NCBI RefSeq assembly: GCF_003387475.1
Contig: NZ_QUNO01000002.1
Location: 124,001 to 188,000, forward strand
From: Kutzneria buriramensis
GTDB lineage: Bacteria; Actinomycetota; Actinomycetes; Mycobacteriales; Pseudonocardiaceae
Length of the DNA: 64,000 nt
Direction: 5' to 3'
Part shown: piece by piece, positions 52,987 to 61,504 of the stretch
How the letters are laid out: every line of letters begins with the position of its first letter
Numbering within the stretch: the first letter of the stretch is position 1
Program-made: the position numbers and the translations under genes
The notes under the pieces: model-generated
What the model was told of the DNA's origin: nothing
Database searches by the model: none
What the model saw: only the letters and a program-made list of their open reading frames with translations

Positions 52987-54129
52987 TTAGGGGCGTACGG
53001 CGAGGATCTGGTGGACGCTCATGTTGTCGTCGGCGAAGGCGAGGGCGTTGTCCGCGAGCTGGAGGCGCCAGATGCGGGCGCGGGGGGCGCCGACGCGGGT
53101 GACGACGTCCTCCCAGCTGGAGTCGAGGGCGTGCCGCCAGGCGTCGATGGTGCGGACGTAGTGCTCCCGCATGGACATGACGTCCTTGATCTCCAGCCCC
53201 GCGTCCTTCAGCTGCGTCAGGGTGCGTTCCACCGGCCGGGTCGCCATCGCGGGCGTCAGGTACGAGCCGGTGAACATCCCGCCGCCGGACGTCTGCTGCA
53301 TCAGCAACTGCCCACCGGGCCGCAGCAGCCGGCGCAGGGTCTCGCAGTACGCCGGATAGTCGTGGTCGCTGACGTGTTCGCCGGTCTCGATCGACGCCAC
53401 CGCGTCGAACGGCCCGTCGGTGACGTCACGGGGTGCCAGCCGCCGCACCGTGACGGCGTGGGACAGCCCGCGCTCGGCGGCCTGCGCGCGCACGAAGTCG
53501 CACTGCGCCGGGGACACCGTCACACCGGTCGCGGCCACACCGTAGTTCTCGGCGGCGTGCAGCACGAGGGATCCCCACCCGCAGCCGACGTCGAGCAGCC
53601 GCATTCCCTTGGCCAGCCGCAGCTTCCGACACACCAGGTCCAGCTTGTCGTGCTGGGCGTCGGAGAGCCGGTACTCGGGGCCCTCGGACGTCCAGTACCC
53701 GCACGACCGGGCCAGCGTGTCGTCCAGTATGGACGGCGGGAAGTCGATCGTCGGCCGCGTCTCGTCCACCGGCATCCGCCGGCCGCCCACCCCGGTGCGG
53801 GCCAGCAGTCCCAGAAGCAACGGCCAGTGGTTCGCCGACGGCCTACCCTTGCTCCGAACGTGTGCAACGAGCTCCCGGCAGTGCCGCAGTCCGACGGCGA
53901 AGTCGCCGTCGATGTCCAGGTGGCCGGTGACATAGGCCTTCACCAGCCCCGAACGCCCTGGTCGCAGCAGCAATTGCCGCACGGCGCGCGGCGAGCGCAG
54001 CACGGCCACCGGCCCCTCGGACCGGCCGGCGCGGCTGCCGTCCCAGGCCCGCAGTCCGATCGGGAAACGCAGGCCGTACACGGTCTCGATCGCCGTGACG
54101 ACCTGCCCGGCGACTCCCGGATTCGGCAT
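52987..54129 (-). CDS. Cyclopropane-fatty-acid synthase-like methyltransferase
   Basis: The 380-residue protein is a SAM-dependent methyltransferase of the CFA synthase/mycolic acid methyltransferase family. The SAM motif RLLDVGCGWGS is at 177-187, followed by ATGVTVSPAQCDFVRAQAAERG, VASIETGEHV and the C-terminal SMREHYVRTIDAWRHAL typical of CFA synthases. The N-terminal 130 residues form the usual lipid-binding lead domain. It would cyclopropanate or methylate unsaturated phospholipid acyl chains at the membrane. ATG 54129 follows AGGAG. It is convergent with the P450 operon and shares the repeat as terminator. Confidence 0.87.
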   Translation of the reverse strand: MPNPGVAGQVVTAIETVYGLRFPIGLRAWDGSRAGRSEGPVAVLRSPRAVRQLLLRPGRSGLVKAYVTGHLDIDGDFAVGLRHCRELVAHVRSKGRPSANHWPLLLGLLARTGVGGRRMPVDETRPTIDFPPSILDDTLARSCGYWTSEGPEYRLSDAQHDKLDLVCRKLRLAKGMRLLDVGCGWGSLVLHAAENYGVAATGVTVSPAQCDFVRAQAAERGLSHAVTVRRLAPRDVTDGPFDAVASIETGEHVSDHDYPAYCETLRRLLRPGGQLLMQQTSGGGMFTGSYLTPAMATRPVERTLTQLKDAGLEIKDVMSMREHYVRTIDAWRHALDSSWEDVVTRVGAPRARIWRLQLADNALAFADDNMSVHQILAVRP

Positions 54130-54329
54130 CGGCGGCTCCTGGCTCGGGGGTGCGGCAGTAGAGGTCCTATCGCGCGACGGCCGGCGAACGTGACGGGGTG
54201 GGGGAGGGCCGCATCGCCCGAACGGCCGTGACCTTCGGGCACTCGGGTGTAACCCTTTCAGGCTCAACCGCGCTAATCCCGGTGTGCCGGCGGGCTCCCG
54301 TCGGCCGTCGACGGCGACGGGAGTGCGCT

Positions 54330-55703
54330 ATGAGCGGTGCGGGCAAGGGGATCCGAAGACTCGTCGTGGCGGGGACCGCTGTGGTCCTCGCGGGCCTCGG
54401 CCTCGCCGCACCGGCGTCGGCCGCCACAGCCAGTGGCTACAACGCCTACGTCACGGACAGCCGGCAGAACCAGGTGTACGTGATCGACACCGCCACCAAC
54501 GCGATCACCGCGACCATCCCGGTCGGCATGAGCCCGCGCGGCGTCGCGGTCACGCCGGACGGCAGCCGCGTCTACGTCACCGACCACGGCAGCCAGCAGG
54601 TGTCGGTGATCGACCCGGCCGCGAGCGCGGTGATCGCGACGATCTCGGTGCCGGGCGCGCCGAACTTCGTCGCCGTCTCGCCGGACGGCCGCAAGGCGTA
54701 CGTCAGCAACGACGGCACCAACCAGCTCGACGTGATCGACACGGCCAGCAACACCGTGACGAACACGATCCAGCTCGGTTCCGTCGCGGCCGGCGTCACC
54801 GTGCTCACGCCGGACGGCAAGTTCGTCTTCGTGGCGGCCACCGGCGCCAACACCGTGTACAAGATCGACACCGGCACCGGTTCGGTGGTGTCGGCCATCA
54901 CCACCCCGCGGCCGAGCGCCCTGGCGATCTCGCCGGACAGCGCCGAGCTGGCGGCGGTGGACATCTTCGACAACACCGTCACGAGGTTCGCCACGGCGAC
55001 CGGCGCGCAGACCGGCGTCACATCGCTGCCCGGCAGCCCGCAGGAACTCGCCTACACCAACGGAGCCCTGTACGTCACCAACGCCGACGGCACCGTCTCG
55101 GTGCTGAACAACGGCGCCGTGACGGCCACGATTCCGGTGCAGCCCAGCCGGGTTCTCGGCGGCATCGCCGCGACCCCGGACGGCCAGAGCCTGTACGTGG
55201 GCAACTACTTCGGCAACGGCGTCACCGTGCTGAGCACGGCGAGCAACACCGTCAGCACGACGGTCCCGACCCCGACCGACAGCCAGCCGTACGAGGTCGC
55301 GATCGGCAACCGCAGCGCCGACCTGGCGCTGAAGCTGACCGCCAACCCGTCCGGGTTGCTGGTGCACGAGGTGACGTTCAACGCGACCGTCACCGACAAG
55401 GGCCCCGGTCCGGCGACCTCGGCGACCGTGAAGTTCAGCTACGCCAACGGCTTCGTCTCGCCGTCGGCGCCCGGCTGCACGGTCGACGCGAACGCCCGCA
55501 CCGCCACCTGCGCGGTCGGGCCGATCGCCAACGGCGCCTCGGTGACCAGGTCGCTGAAGCTCACCGTGGGCCTGCTGACGATCTCCAGCTCGCTGCCGGT
55601 GACCGTCACCCGCACCGCCAGCGCGCCGACGGATCCCAACGCCGCCAACGACAGCAGCACCGTCACGTGCTCGGCGCTCACCTCGATCCTGGTCAGCTGC
55701 TAG
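54330..55703 (+). CDS. Secreted YVTN beta-propeller protein with DUF11-like domain
   Basis: The 457-residue protein has a signal peptide (cleaved near ASA at residue 31) and about seven YVTN-type propeller repeats (AYVTDSRQNQVYVIDTATNAITATIPVG, AVTPDGSRVYVTDHGSQQVSVIDP and so on) to about residue 325. A DUF11/CARDB-like immunoglobulin domain follows (about 330-457: SADLALKLTANPSGLLVHEVTFNATVTDKGPGPATSATV) and ends with a cysteine pair. It is probably a surface or secreted binding protein. No catalytic motif. A GGGAG precedes the ATG. The 3' end overlaps the convergent LysR gene by 11 bases. Confidence 0.82.
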   Translation: MSGAGKGIRRLVVAGTAVVLAGLGLAAPASAATASGYNAYVTDSRQNQVYVIDTATNAITATIPVGMSPRGVAVTPDGSRVYVTDHGSQQVSVIDPAASAVIATISVPGAPNFVAVSPDGRKAYVSNDGTNQLDVIDTASNTVTNTIQLGSVAAGVTVLTPDGKFVFVAATGANTVYKIDTGTGSVVSAITTPRPSALAISPDSAELAAVDIFDNTVTRFATATGAQTGVTSLPGSPQELAYTNGALYVTNADGTVSVLNNGAVTATIPVQPSRVLGGIAATPDGQSLYVGNYFGNGVTVLSTASNTVSTTVPTPTDSQPYEVAIGNRSADLALKLTANPSGLLVHEVTFNATVTDKGPGPATSATVKFSYANGFVSPSAPGCTVDANARTATCAVGPIANGASVTRSLKLTVGLLTISSSLPVTVTRTASAPTDPNAANDSSTVTCSALTSILVSC

Positions 55704-57049: not shown

Positions 57050-57742
57050 TCAGATGATGGGCAGGTCGCCTGCCACCACCGCGCGCGCAACGTCGTCGAG
57101 CTTGAGGTTGTTGCTTCGCGCGTGACGGCGCAGCGTGGAGAAGGCGTCGTCCACGGACACCTGTAGGCGCTCGGCCAGGATGCCTTTGGCCTGCTCGATC
57201 GTGACGCGGCTGCCGAGCGCGTGTTGCAGCTGGTCGATGACAACCGCGCTGTCGCGGGCCCGTTCGCTGAGCACACCGATGGTGGCCAGGTTGGCCAACG
57301 CCTGGGCGAGTGCGGCGTCAAGGTTGCCGGGATGTTCGGACAACAGGCACATCACGCCGACGGTCTGTTCCCACACCCTCATCGAGAATGCCTGCACGGT
57401 GCCGAATCGGGCTGTCAGCACGGCGGAGGTGAACAGCGCCCAGTGGTCATCCTCGGTCAGGTCGGGCGAATACATCCTGGGTCCGCTGGGGAAGGCGTTC
57501 ATGCCGGGTCTGTCATCGGTCCAGGGTTCTGACATCTCGATCGGACCGGGCCAGTTGGCGGAGGTGGCCACCAGGCCCAATGCATTTCTCCGACCGGTCA
57601 ACAGGACCGCGCAGGCCGACTCCAGCAGGTCGGCGGCAGTTTGGGCGAGAGTGCCCAGATAGTCGATGGGGGCGCAGTCGGTGACAAGATTGTCTGCGAG
57701 GACAACGAATGCCCGTCGCGCCCGCCGGTCCATGGAATCCAT
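57050..57742 (-). CDS. GAF-ANTAR regulator
   Basis: The 230-residue protein has an N-terminal GAF-like sensor domain (about 10-160) and a C-terminal ANTAR RNA-binding domain (about 168-225: LQHALGSRVTIEQAKGILAERLQVSVDDAFSTLRRHARSNNLKLDDVARAVVAG). ANTAR proteins act as antiterminators that bind paired hairpins in leaders. No membrane segment. It is transcribed in the same direction as the response regulator upstream, with 69 bases between them, and sits next to the kai operon, so it may be an output of that system (inference). ATG 57742 has GAGGA upstream. Confidence 0.83.
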   Translation of the reverse strand: MDSMDRRARRAFVVLADNLVTDCAPIDYLGTLAQTAADLLESACAVLLTGRRNALGLVATSANWPGPIEMSEPWTDDRPGMNAFPSGPRMYSPDLTEDDHWALFTSAVLTARFGTVQAFSMRVWEQTVGVMCLLSEHPGNLDAALAQALANLATIGVLSERARDSAVVIDQLQHALGSRVTIEQAKGILAERLQVSVDDAFSTLRRHARSNNLKLDDVARAVVAGDLPII

Positions 57743-57811
57743 CGTGTCCTCTGTCGTCGCCCCCGCACGTCCGTCGGACGGGGACTCTACGGAGCATTCC
57801 CGGGTGAGGCA

Positions 57812-58510
57812 TCACTCAGTTGGTCTGGCCTCCCCCCCCAGATGGGCTGAAGCGGCGCCGCCGCCGACAAGATCAACCGACAGTGGGGGCGTTGACAGGA
57901 GTCCGTTTCTGGTGGCGATGACAACCGCCTCGAGTTGGGTGTGCGCACCCAACTTGCGCATCACGTTCTTGACGTGGCCCCGTGCGGTGTGCGCGCTCAC
58001 GACGAGCCGCTGCGCGATGGCGCCTGTGTTCATCCCCTCGCCCATCAAGCCGAGAACCTCTCGTTCCCGACGGGTGAGCCCGGTCTGGTTGGGAACGAGG
58101 ACGGCCGATGCGAGCGCCGCGCCGGACGTCTTCTCGATCAGGAGCTTGCCGTCGAGCGGGGTGCGGATGGCCGTCAGGATAACGGGCAGCGCGCTGTCCT
58201 TGGCCAGAAAACCGGTGGCGCCGGCGGCGAGAGCCTCGACGAGCAGGACGGCATCCGGATTGGCGGTCAGGACGAGCACGCGTACATGAGGATATTCCGC
58301 TTTTATTCGCCGTGTGCCTTCGATGCCGTTCACGCCGGGCAGTCCGATGTCCATCAGCACGACGTCCGGCCGCCGGTGTCCGATCAACGCCAACGCGTCC
58401 TCGACCGTGCCCACCGCCCCGACGCAGTCCAGGTCGGGTTGGGCGTCGATCGCGATCTCCAGGGCGCCAGCGAGGGTCCGCTGGTCCTCGACCACCAGCA
58501 CGTGGGTCAC
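57812..58510 (-). CDS. NarL/FixJ-type response regulator beside kaiBC
   Basis: The 232-residue protein has a receiver domain (acidic E8-D9, phospho-acceptor D54 in VLMDIGLPG, switch Thr in VLTAN, Lys in FLAKDSA) and a C-terminal LuxR HTH (LTRREREVLGLMGEGMNTGAIAQRLVVSAHTARGHVKNVMRKLGAHTQ). It is divergent from kaiB, with the kinase as last gene of that operon, so the two probably form the signalling pair. In cyanobacteria SasA-RpaA plays this part, but RpaA is OmpR-type, so the output here is a different family. GTG 58510 has AAAGGA upstream. Confidence 0.85.
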   Translation of the reverse strand: MTHVLVVEDQRTLAGALEIAIDAQPDLDCVGAVGTVEDALALIGHRRPDVVLMDIGLPGVNGIEGTRRIKAEYPHVRVLVLTANPDAVLLVEALAAGATGFLAKDSALPVILTAIRTPLDGKLLIEKTSGAALASAVLVPNQTGLTRREREVLGLMGEGMNTGAIAQRLVVSAHTARGHVKNVMRKLGAHTQLEAVVIATRNGLLSTPPLSVDLVGGGAASAHLGGEARPTE

Positions 58511-58678
58511 GTCAGTCGTCCTTTCCGTTCGCGGCGTTCAACCGTACCCGCTGGCCCCTGTTCGGGCGGCGTACCGTGGAATGCGGGCAAACCTCGCTTC
58601 GGCGCGACGGGTGGTTCGGCGTGAGACGGATCGTGTGACGCGTTGCGGAACAGGGTGTGCCCGAATGGGGTGCCTGTG

Positions 58679-58984
58679 ATGACTACCTACTTCTTCCGGC
58701 TCTTCGTGTTCGGCCAGACGGAGCGGTCTGTGGCGGCGCAGGCGAACCTGCGCATGTTGTGCGAGTCCCTGCTGCCCGGCCGTTACCGAGTCGAGGTGGT
58801 CGACGTCGCCGAACATCCGGATGTGGCCGATCAGGAGCGCGTCCTGGCCACCCCGATGGTCGTCAGGATGGCTCCATTGCCGAGGTATCGGGTGATCGGG
58901 GACCTGTCCGACCACCGTCGGATGGCGACAGCTCTCGGCCTGCCCGAGGAGGCACCGCCTACTCCACTAGGGGATGAAGCATGA
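58679..58984 (+). CDS. kaiB: KaiB-like clock protein
   Basis: The 101-residue protein has the KaiB length and sequence pattern: YFFRLFVFGQTERSVAAQANLRMLCESLLPGRYRVEVVDVAEHPDVADQERVLATPMVVRMAPLPRYRVIGDLSD, ending LGLPEE. In cyanobacteria KaiB binds phosphorylated KaiC and promotes dephosphorylation; it switches between a tetramer and a thioredoxin-like monomer. ATG 58679 gives the normal KaiB N-terminus, though GTG 58676 is also possible. Its TGA overlaps the kaiC ATG (ATGA), so the pair is coupled. No kaiA is present. Confidence 0.88.
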   Translation: MTTYFFRLFVFGQTERSVAAQANLRMLCESLLPGRYRVEVVDVAEHPDVADQERVLATPMVVRMAPLPRYRVIGDLSDHRRMATALGLPEEAPPTPLGDEA

Positions 58985-60513
58985 CATACAACGATGCGAT
59001 CAGGCGGCTTCCCACCAGGATCAACGGCCTCGACCAGGTCGCGTTGGGCGGGCTTCCCGAAGGCCGGTCGACGCTGGTCACCGGCACCACCGGCACCGGC
59101 AAGACGTTGTTCGCCATCGAATTCCTCGCCAGGGGCATCCAGCATCTCGACCAACCAGGCGTGTTCGTCAACTTCGAGGAGAGGCCCGAAGACGTGCGCC
59201 GCAACGCGGCGTCGCTCAGCTTCCCGATCGAGCAGTGGGAACGCGACCGGCACTGGGCCTTCGTCGACGCGACGGCGGACGCCGAGGACGGCGGTGAGGT
59301 GATCGTCGGCAACTACGACTTCGGTGGGTTGGCGTCCCGTATCGAGCATGCCGTCCGTGGGATCGGCGCCGTTCGCGTGTCGCTCGACTCGCTCGGCGCG
59401 GTCTTCAGCCGGTTTCCGAACTCCGCCGTCGTCCGCCAGGAACTGCATCGGATCGCGCACGTCCTGAACCGGATCGGGGTGACCTCGGTGATCACCGCGG
59501 AGCGCACCAGCGAGTACAACGGCGTGTCCCGGTACGACGTCGAGGAGTTCGTGCTCGACAATGTGATCATCCTTCGCAACGTCCTCGCGGACGAGCGGCG
59601 GCGGCGGACCGTGGAGATCGTCAAGTTCCGCGGCACCACGCACCGCACCGGGGAGTGGCTGTTCACGATCGATCCGAAGCACGGCATCGTCGTGATGCCG
59701 CTGGCGTTCCTCACGCCGCTCGCGGTGGCGTCCCGGACGCGTGTCTCCACGGGCAACCCCGGACTGGACGAGATGTGCGGGGGCGGCGTCTACCAGGATT
59801 CGATCGTCCTGCTGACCGGGCCGAGCGGCGTCGGGAAGACGCTGACCGGCCTCGGATTCACCGCGGCCGGGATCGCGGCCGGCGAGCGCTGCCTGATCTT
59901 CGCCCTGGACGAGAGCCGCGCCCAGTTGGGCCGAAACGCCGCCGGCTGGGGGCTCGATCTCGACTCGATGGAGGCGTCCGGCCTGCTCCGGATCGTGTGC
60001 GACTACCCGGAGGTCGCCTCGTTGGAGGACCACTTCCTGCGGCTCAGGCAGCTGATCGAGGAGTTTCAGCCGACCCGCCTGGTGATGGACACACTGTCGG
60101 CCCTGGAACGGGTCGTCACGCCCCGAGCACTGCTCGACTTCGTGCTGTCGCTCGGCGCCGTGGTGCGTCAACACCGGGTGACCACGCTGCTCACCTCGGC
60201 GCCCTCCGGGCGGTTCACTCCCCAGCTCACGCCGGCGATCGCGGCCGAGATCGCCAGCCTCACCGATGTCTCCATCAACCTCCGCTACGTCGAGTCCGCC
60301 GGTGAGATCCATCGCGTCGTCGCCGTCCTTCAGACGCGAGGTTCCATGCATGACCCCAGCATCCGGCACGTGACCGTCGACAGCGAGGGCCTGCACGTCG
60401 GCGAGCGCGTGACCAGAGTGGTGGGCATCCTGTCCGGCAACTCGACGATTCCCGGGGTTCCGTGGTTGCTGGCCGAGTCGCCGGAGCCGGAAGAACAGCA
60501 GTCAGGTGAGTGA
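58981..60513 (+). CDS. kaiC: KaiC-like double RecA-type ATPase
   Basis: The 510-residue protein has two RecA/KaiC domains. CI (about 8-245) has Walker A GTTGTGKT (35-42) and catalytic pair E67-E68. CII (about 250-480) has Walker A GPSGVGKT (280-287) and FALDESRAQL, where the first of the paired glutamates is D310. The autophosphorylation segment of cyanobacterial KaiC (HISTITDT) corresponds to EIASLTDV at 423-430, so the Ser431/Thr432 pair is A425/S426: one hydroxyl site remains. The tail after residue 480 is short and unlike the KaiA-binding tail. It is expected to be a KaiA-independent ATPase or timer. It overlaps kaiB by four bases and the kinase gene by eight. Confidence 0.9.
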   Translation: MTYNDAIRRLPTRINGLDQVALGGLPEGRSTLVTGTTGTGKTLFAIEFLARGIQHLDQPGVFVNFEERPEDVRRNAASLSFPIEQWERDRHWAFVDATADAEDGGEVIVGNYDFGGLASRIEHAVRGIGAVRVSLDSLGAVFSRFPNSAVVRQELHRIAHVLNRIGVTSVITAERTSEYNGVSRYDVEEFVLDNVIILRNVLADERRRRTVEIVKFRGTTHRTGEWLFTIDPKHGIVVMPLAFLTPLAVASRTRVSTGNPGLDEMCGGGVYQDSIVLLTGPSGVGKTLTGLGFTAAGIAAGERCLIFALDESRAQLGRNAAGWGLDLDSMEASGLLRIVCDYPEVASLEDHFLRLRQLIEEFQPTRLVMDTLSALERVVTPRALLDFVLSLGAVVRQHRVTTLLTSAPSGRFTPQLTPAIAAEIASLTDVSINLRYVESAGEIHRVVAVLQTRGSMHDPSIRHVTVDSEGLHVGERVTRVVGILSGNSTIPGVPWLLAESPEPEEQQSGE

Positions 60514-61504
60514 GTTCGCCGATATCAGCCGTCTCGTCATCACGGGACCGGCCGACGGGATCCTGGCCGTGAACAGGAAAGGGGTCATCCAGCTGTGCAA
60601 CAAGGCCGCGGAAGACCTGTTCGCCCGACCGGCGGACGCCCTGATCGGCGCCGAATTCGGGCACCCCATCGCCCCGAACGGCGTCTTCGAGATCGACCTG
60701 ATCCTGCCCGGCGGCCAGGTGCGGGTGGTCGAGATGCGGATCATCATCACCACCACCACCGGCGAGCAGCTGCGACAGGCCGTGCTGCGAGATGTCACCC
60801 ATCCAGACGTCGAATACGCACTGGAGCGGCAGAACATCGTGCTCGCGGTGGCGGCGCACGAGCTGCGCAGCCCGCTCGCCGCGATCAGCCTGCTGGCACA
60901 CGTGCTGCGCGACAACGAGACCACGCTGGCCCGACAGCGTCGAGTCGAGATCATCGAGCGCATCATCTCGCGCACCGTCTACGCTCAGGCCCTGGTGCGC
61001 AAGCTTCTCACCGCATCGCGGATCGACGCCGGCGGCAGCCCGGTCATCGAGAGCGTTTCCGTCTTCGAAGTCGTGGTCGAGCAGCTCGCAGAGATCGCGC
61101 AGCGGCGCGACCACCTCCGCGTGTCGGTGCCCGACGGGCTCGTGGCCGTCGTCGACCGCGCCGAGTTCCGTCAGATGCTCACGAACTACCTGGAGAACGC
61201 CCTCAGCTACGGCGAGCCGCCGGTCGAGATAGCGGCCAGGGCGACAGCGGGGTGGATCGAGATCCGGGTGACCGACCACGGCCCCGGCGTGCCCGCCTCC
61301 TTCGTGGCGCGGCTGTTCGAGCGGTTCAGCCGCGGGCCTGGCAGTGAGCGCAGGGGCGAAGGGACCGGTCTGGGACTGTGGATCGTCCGCAACCTCGCGC
61401 GGGCCAATGGGGGAGAAGCCTGGTACGAACCCGGCCATCCGCACGGCTCTCGCTTCTGTCTGCGCCTGCGGCAGGCCGGCGTCGGGCGGGCGATATCCGG
61501 TTGA
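60506..61504 (+). CDS. PAS-type histidine kinase in the kai operon
   Basis: The 332-residue soluble kinase has a PAS-like N-terminal domain (about 1-100), HisKA dimerisation box AVAAHELRSPLAAISLLAHVL with H118, and HATPase with NYLENALSYGEPP, DHGPGVP and GTGLGLWIVRNLA. It has no membrane segment. Position as third gene of kaiBC suggests it reads KaiC state, as SasA does, but it lacks the KaiB-like sensory domain of SasA. Output is probably the divergent LuxR response regulator. The GTG start lies inside the end of kaiC. Its TGA directly abuts the stop of the convergent gene (TGATCA). Confidence 0.86.
   Translation: MSEFADISRLVITGPADGILAVNRKGVIQLCNKAAEDLFARPADALIGAEFGHPIAPNGVFEIDLILPGGQVRVVEMRIIITTTTGEQLRQAVLRDVTHPDVEYALERQNIVLAVAAHELRSPLAAISLLAHVLRDNETTLARQRRVEIIERIISRTVYAQALVRKLLTASRIDAGGSPVIESVSVFEVVVEQLAEIAQRRDHLRVSVPDGLVAVVDRAEFRQMLTNYLENALSYGEPPVEIAARATAGWIEIRVTDHGPGVPASFVARLFERFSRGPGSERRGEGTGLGLWIVRNLARANGGEAWYEPGHPHGSRFCLRLRQAGVGRAISG

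Follow-up and report, generated by a model that had tools for sequence, protein, structure and literature searches.

A stretch of the 12 Mb genome of the soil actinomycete Kutzneria buriramensis encodes KaiB and KaiC directly beside a histidine kinase, and the question it raises is whether a Kai module in such a host keeps time or signals in some other way. The stretch analysed, called the window throughout, comprises 64,000 nucleotides (contig NZ_QUNO01000002.1, positions 124001 to 188000), and coordinates without a locus name are positions within it. Sequence comparison makes the module more likely to be a signalling switch than a clock, because the slow-ticking parts of the cyanobacterial clock look changed or lost. 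We favor, by a narrow preference, the reading that KaiBC gates a PAS-bearing effector through its ATPase and KaiB-binding state and not through the canonical KaiC phosphorylation cycle. A broader proposal is held more tentatively, at a little under an even chance. It states that an actinobacterial clade has lost the phosphorylation cycle, that its KaiB prefers the binding fold, and that KaiBC acts there as a general ATP-driven switch, with the PAS domain as an adaptor for interchangeable outputs (a histidine kinase with its NarL regulator, or a SpoIIE phosphatase).

The kaiB-kaiC-kinase operon and its relatives

The first gene, kaiB (58679–58984, plus strand), encodes 101 amino acids that match the Pfam family KaiB (PF07689) with 69.1 bits against a cut-off of 27. 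It is followed by kaiC (58981–60513, plus strand), whose 510-amino-acid product has two KaiC ATPase domains and scores 561 bits against the model NF006799 (cut-off 408) and 335 bits, over two stretches, against Pfam KaiC. The third gene (60506–61504, plus strand) encodes a histidine kinase of 332 amino acids with the Pfam architecture PAS-HisKA-HATPase_c, and its Kai-associated PAS domain occupies 60539–60802 on the plus strand (approximately residues 12–99). The three genes are translationally coupled, by an ATGA overlap at 58981–58984 and an 8-base overlap at 60506–60513. Across a divergent intergenic region of 168 bases (58511–58678) lies the gene of a NarL/LuxR-type response regulator (57812–58510, minus strand; Pfam Response_reg 84 bits, GerE 52.8 bits). 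On its 3′ side, on the same strand and after a gap of 69 bases, is a GAF-ANTAR gene (57050–57742, minus strand; Pfam ANTAR 70 bits, cut-off 27.3). All five frames are open in the window. This is the layout, overlaps included, that the original prediction had described from the letters alone, with the GAF domain recovered through a structural model and homologs.

The family-model matches also uphold the claim that the window encodes a true KaiC, and they rule out a RadA/GvpD-like identity. The stricter models were not reached, either by the window KaiC (circ_KaiC, TIGR02655: 473.8, cut-off 546.25) or by the window KaiB (circ_KaiB, TIGR02654: 60.8, cut-off 145.3). A Pfam profile of KaiA gave no match in the bacterium's own genome (0/1), the control search being positive only in Synechococcus elongatus, and a KaiB profile search of the same genome returned a single match, the kaiB gene itself. 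The kinase has no KaiB-like domain, as the SasA-type model PRK09303 matches its kinase part only (residues 105–319). Since the kinase begins with PAS and the regulator is of the NarL type, the combination of a SasA-type kinase with an OmpR-type RpaA is not present at the locus, which is where RpaA was sought. The predicted absence of KaiA and of a SasA-like KaiB domain, and an output distinct from RpaA (NarL-type regulator, ANTAR protein), are thereby corroborated. Elsewhere in the genome (L038, G000:C19:188560-189933) there is a second KaiC-fold double ATPase, which at 206 bits stays below the KaiC cut-off. Its matched stretch contains one TGA, and the KaiB profile search of the genome gave no KaiB at that place.

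Six patterns, scanned against one genome per species (84,980 species), matched 29 loci, 28 actinobacterial and one cyanobacterial. The phosphosite, E318, and KaiB lie outside all six; the catalytic glutamates of the CI domain of KaiC fall within one of them, so that conservation of these glutamates is partly favored by the search. Full-length KaiC above the cut-off was found in 3 of the 7 genomes of the genus, in 7 of 249 sampled genomes of the family, a patchy occurrence, and in 11 of 394 genomes of the class, with three of those 11 inside the clade described below. KaiB above the cut-off was present in 6 of 392 Streptomyces genomes and in 16 of 200 genomes of Microbispora's family, where 14 loci are clade-type and two have another KaiC type.

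In the KaiC tree, the window protein belongs to one actinobacterial clade of 39 sequences (branch support 100/100, stem of 0.54 changes per site), and its closest relatives are from Kutzneria. The clade covers several families, its hosts being Kutzneria, Streptomyces, and other actinomycetes; the Streptomyces members stand at two distant positions in the tree, which suggests transfer or differential loss. Duplicate loci (e.g., L014 and L075) were counted once, the cyanobacterial locus L026 was excluded from the clade, and in L016 and L007 the contig end is too close for the upstream side to be judged fully. The 39 members form one side of a branch, set against 21 other KaiC: 13 actinobacterial, one cyanobacterial, and seven plasmid-borne, the hosts of these being six Alphaproteobacteria and a planctomycete. 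This set and the 19 other KaiB (from 14 loci, without L169 and L175) used for comparison are search returns and not balanced samples.

In all 39 clade loci KaiB is encoded immediately 5′ of KaiC, and in 23 of them the divergent regulator adjoins, an arrangement that exceeds chance. The neighborhood is thus conserved, as the original prediction required, but its constant part is KaiB-KaiC-PAS (PAS in 36/39), and the full five-gene set is confined to 8 of the 39 loci.

Other gene orders were seen among the search returns. In another actinobacterial KaiC group (L102, L071, L149, L151), kaiC is followed by two tandem kaiB-like genes, and likewise in a rhizobial plasmid (L171). At locus L181 (L181:4556-7099), kaiB is reduced to its start and kaiC to its second half, beside open kinase and regulator frames; this truncation may be a deletion or an assembly error.

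Residue changes in KaiC and KaiB

Residues were numbered from PDB alignments, by S. elongatus positions. The window KaiC has A425 in place of S431, S426 in place of T432, and I420 in place of T426; E318 is conservatively changed to D310, E319 is kept (E311), and so are both Walker A lysines. Similar changes run through the clade. The S431 position is occupied by A in 32 of the 39 sequences, S in 2, T in 2, D in 2, and N in 1 (a hydroxyl in 4/39), and the T432 position by S in 24, G in 10, R in 3, A in 1, and N in 1. A hydroxyl is found at neither position in 14/39, and the dyad is SS in 2/39. No clade KaiC has T at position 426 (0/39), 38 of 39 have D at 318, and 34 of 39 have E at 319. Among the 21 other KaiC, S431 is S in 17 and E318 is E in 18.

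The residues of the CI ATPase and the Walker motifs are largely kept in the clade (K52, E78, and K294 in 39/39, E77 in 35/39), as is the core of what we take, from S. elongatus KaiC, to be the KaiB-binding loop (G110 and Y/F112 in 39/39, D113 in 37/39). These CI catalytic residues and loop core appear compatible with a KaiC ATPase that KaiB accelerates. Mean identity within the clade is 0.678 for CI versus 0.602 for CII, a contrast that is weaker outside it (0.473 versus 0.418).

The window KaiB has R54, A85, and G87 where S. elongatus has K57, G88, and D90. These three residues have been proposed to govern KaiB fold switching (PMC5520375), and in S. elongatus G88A and D90R favor the binding fold (PMC12618002); here and below, statements from papers cited by PMC number refer to individual passages of those papers. 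The literature passages on KaiB fold switching contained no test of the effect of D90G. G88 is replaced in all 39 clade KaiB (A in 31, V in 4, F in 2, L in 2), the D90 position is G in 39/39, and the K57 position is R in 35/39. Of the 19 other KaiB, 12 have the glycine at position 88 and five the aspartate at position 90, which makes D90 a variable position outside the clade too. Clade KaiB is probably shifted towards the KaiC-binding fold. As read from these alignments, the changes at the phosphosites, at E318, and at the KaiB switch positions weaken the clock reading, and the timing circuit envisaged in the original prediction is not supported, with KaiC phosphosites altered clade-wide and KaiB different at fold-switch positions.

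The Kai-linked PAS domain and its partners

Within the third gene product, the PAS domain is the constant part. It follows kaiC in 36 of the 39 clade loci, where the output found after or with it is a HisKA kinase in 30, a SpoIIE-type phosphatase in five, and a PAS-GAF protein with a weak HisKA_3 match in one (L016). The phosphatase was assigned by Pfam in all five loci, which form a Streptomyces subclade (support 100/100) adjoining the Kutzneria group, and the PAS domain is retained in each of them in spite of the exchange of effector. In one of the five, from a draft genome, the PAS-phosphatase gene lies in two reading frames (L006:11280-12582); it was counted in the PAS, phosphatase, and identity figures and left out of the PAS profile. 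Pairwise identity across the 30 kinase loci averages 0.65 for PAS, 0.62 for KaiC, and 0.58 for the kinase domain.

The window PAS is its own sole match in the K. buriramensis genome at E ≤ 0.1. When the PAS domain of L030 was used as query against the 200 sampled genomes of Microbispora's family, 17 genomes matched at E ≤ 1e-10. Fifteen of these score >100 bits, all at kai loci: 14 are clade-type, and in the remaining genome (G746) the PAS domain stands beside a truncated kaiB/kaiC with a kinase and a regulator. The linkage of PAS to kai is thus 14/14 versus 1/186 (Fisher p = 1e-20, shared ancestry ignored). Related PAS domains occur at kaiBC in Sphingobium (L169, about 91.5 bits), Rhizobium (L175, 48.7 bits, fragmentary), and Aquisphaera (L170, 47.1 bits), and a weaker relative (36.8 bits) lies on the opposite strand near kaiC in L104. 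Because these relatives are found at Sphingobium-type kaiBC with unaltered phosphosites, the association with PAS seems to predate the phosphosite loss. A PAS of the Rhodobacter sphaeroides kind was dismissed by the profile (10.4 bits, compared with about 91.5 for Sphingobium).

Both partners of the putative phosphorelay look intact, with the H, N, D, and G boxes present in the kinases and the receiver Asp, Thr, and Lys in the regulators. In 28 aligned kinases (of the 30 kinase loci, L011 and L107 being left out), H118, N231, D257, G259, G286, and G288 are invariant, and one of the two N-box asparagines is I in 2/28. The AlphaFold2 model of the kinase (predicted local distance difference test score, pLDDT, 80) matches WalK, LOV-kinases, and HK853 in Foldseek. 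In 22 of the 23 regulators (L007, cut by the contig end, was left out), D9, D54, T82, and K104 are invariant. The divergent regulator occurs at 23 of the 30 kinase loci and at 0 of the 9 others (Fisher p = 5e-5, shared ancestry ignored), a co-occurrence that supports a cognate pair. In the spacers between regulator and kaiB (14/22), a shared operator was considered and rejected: scores exceeded those of eight mononucleotide shuffles at every width, but, close relatives aside, the candidate sites agree in neither position nor sequence, which leaves no operator to claim.

Pfam detects no GAF domain in the window ANTAR protein. Its predicted model (pLDDT 76) matches GAF structures, and both GAF and ANTAR are found by Pfam at the equivalent position in L002, L003, L009, L013, L015, L017, and L163; model and homologs together indicate that the protein has a GAF domain. 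An ANTAR-domain gene follows the regulator in 8 of the 39 loci, namely the window and those same seven, which comprise three of Kutzneria type and five from a Streptomyces group of six, whose remaining member (L007) is cut by the contig end. Locus L099 has a GAF gene in which no ANTAR domain was detected, and nine Streptosporangiaceae loci have a second histidine kinase in the position of the ANTAR gene, as judged by similarity (Pfam on L010 and L030). In Actinopolymorpha rutila, the gene next to kaiBC encodes GAF-GAF in L018, and in L021 there is a GAF-ANTAR frame with in-frame stops.

A proposed gated effector, its alternatives, and known Kai systems

In the mechanism that we propose, KaiC would work as a two-ring ATPase in which the CI ring and the core of the KaiB-binding loop are kept, with no canonical two-site phosphorylation cycle. 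Its KaiB-bound or free state likely depends on how the CI ATPase cycles and on the ATP/ADP balance of the cell; in R. sphaeroides, KaiB binding speeds the KaiC ATPase irrespective of phosphorylation, and ATP/ADP serves as a cue (PMC10076222). The coupled kinase would read the KaiBC state through its PAS domain, which may dock on KaiC or KaiB, and would then phosphorylate the divergent NarL-type regulator and so control transcription. Antitermination is probably a further branch of the output, through the GAF-ANTAR protein, and the same front end of KaiB, KaiC, and PAS may in some Streptomyces drive a SpoIIE-type phosphatase in place of the kinase.

Several observations weigh against this mechanism. 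The window KaiC has a serine at the T432 position, as do 24 of the 39 clade members, so one-site phosphorylation is possible, and 3/39 have hydroxyls at both phosphosite positions. In R. sphaeroides KaiB, isomerization of P58, P65, and P67 slows fold switching, and the three prolines are kept in 474 of 487 KaiB generally (PMC11551320). The equivalent P59, P66, and P68 are present in the window and in 39/39 clade KaiB, so a kinetic barrier and hour-scale switching may remain. In L169, L170, and L175, whose KaiC have ST and EE, KaiB has F, Q, and Y at position 88, respectively, and G at 90; the KaiB changes are thus tied to the PAS-linked type and not to phosphosite loss, and they are not peculiar to the clade. 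On the side of the effector, three A. rutila loci (L008, L018, L021) have clade-type kaiBC without PAS, and the PAS query also matched, more weakly (54.7 and 44.3 bits, 38% identity), two genomes that gave no KaiB match. In the same 30 kinase loci, the distance correlation between PAS and KaiC (0.78) is lower than that between kinase and KaiC (0.91), which counts against PAS contact. The divergent regulator is missing from 7 of the 30 kinase loci, HisKA kinases usually partner OmpR-type regulators, and the shared ancestry ignored in both Fisher tests also has to be set on this side.

Some of these points lead to the strongest alternative, a KaiBC hourglass or proto-clock of the Rhodopseudomonas and R. 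sphaeroides type, in which KaiC would autophosphorylate its remaining serine, KaiB would switch slowly, and the kinase would read the phase. Besides the serine and the prolines, though the latter are also common in KaiB generally, it can claim the layout itself, KaiBC with a PAS kinase being that of the kaiC-B-PAS/HK operons of Rhodopseudomonas palustris and R. sphaeroides (PMC4794148; L172). We nevertheless consider it unlikely. S431 alone has been reported to suffice for a circadian period (PMC11832031), and a hydroxyl is found there in only four clade members; E318 is D in nearly all of them; the window KaiC is without the long C-terminal extension (510 versus 568 amino acids in 8fwi); and the PAS of the kinase is not specially related to that of R. 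sphaeroides, as its profile score showed.

Somewhat less probable still is that kinase and regulator are a two-component system of the usual kind, carried along with kaiBC but without functional contact to it. Co-inheritance could explain the correlation of 0.91 between kinase and KaiC distances, but this alternative fits poorly with a PAS domain that stays with kaiC through the exchange of effector in five loci, whose strong matches are confined to kai loci in 200 genomes, and whose relatives accompany kaiBC in Sphingobium, Rhizobium, and Aquisphaera. A decaying remnant, with CII drifting after the loss of selection and the module disappearing, is very improbable: the patchy distribution (7/249 in the family), the truncated L181, and ratios of nonsynonymous to synonymous substitution (dN/dS) for CII of 0.41–0.86 in three of seven close pairs, with few changes in those, speak for it, but CII has 0.12–0.25 in the other four (overall range 0.12–0.86), CI has 0.14–0.32 in all seven, the window frames are open, the catalytic residues of kinase and regulator are invariant, and the clade covers several families with support of 100/100.

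The Kai module of the window has relatives among described systems. Compared with cyanobacterial KaiABC and its SasA/RpaA output, the window shares KaiB, a two-domain KaiC, and a kinase with a DNA-binding regulator as candidate output; it differs in having no KaiA, in the altered S431, T432, T426, and E318, in the PAS domain that the kinase has instead of a KaiB-like domain, and in a regulator that is of the NarL and not the OmpR type. The operons of R. palustris and R. sphaeroides likewise place KaiBC beside a PAS histidine kinase and have no KaiA (PMC4794148, PMC10076222), which makes this a known kind of arrangement. Their order is kaiC-kaiB-kinase, whereas here it is kaiB-kaiC-kinase, and their kinase is of the HWE and not the HisKA type; moreover, R. 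sphaeroides KaiC has two adjacent serine phosphosites and a long tail, where the window has an AS dyad. KaiC homologs that lack the phosphosites have also been reported from myxobacteria. These are said to be without the loop that binds KaiB, and kaiB is present in few of their genomes (PMC11832031), whereas the clade has KaiB in 39/39 and keeps the loop core except for D113 in two members.

Closest in design are the plasmid-borne kaiB-kaiC-PAS loci of Sphingobium and Rhizobium, with the same PAS subtype and the same gene order as the window, and the Aquisphaera locus, with the same subtype in the order kinase-kaiB-kaiC. All three resemble the clade in having a non-glycine at KaiB position 88 and G at 90, and differ from it in a KaiC that keeps ST at S431/T432 and E at both 318 and 319. 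The Sphingobium and Aquisphaera kinases are hybrids with receiver domains, in contrast to the PAS-HisKA-HATPase_c kinase of the window, and in Rhizobium the frame that carries the PAS is fragmentary and lies about 1.5 kb 3′ of kaiC, beyond another frame. The plasmid genes are at L169:3726-5449 and L175:3699-5287; existing annotation gives the Sphingobium kaiB a shorter frame and names it only as a hypothetical protein.

Autokinase activity has been described as a well-conserved property of KaiC (Schmelling 2017; PMC5520375), in a paper whose main text mentions neither actinobacteria nor Streptomyces; passages of Pitsawong 2023 (PMC10076222) do not mention actinobacteria either. Two freshwater actinobacteria have been reported, in passages of the literature, to be without Kai proteins, and no description of an actinobacterial KaiBC was found in the titles, abstract openings, and passages of the open-licence literature. 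If our reading holds, the clade would be a case in nature of KaiC ATPase activity and KaiB binding uncoupled from the phospho-clock, with S431, T426, and E318 changed where KaiB already differs at its switch positions, and its PAS would be a Kai-linked domain with swappable outputs. With such a clade, the role of KaiBC in the absence of a clock could be tested directly. Some of the host actinomycetes are genetically manipulable.

Outside the kai locus, the window also encodes a cyclopropane-synthase-like methyltransferase (52987–54267; Pfam CMAS 182 bits) and, at 54198–55703, a protein with YVTN-like beta-propeller repeats, as judged by eye only.

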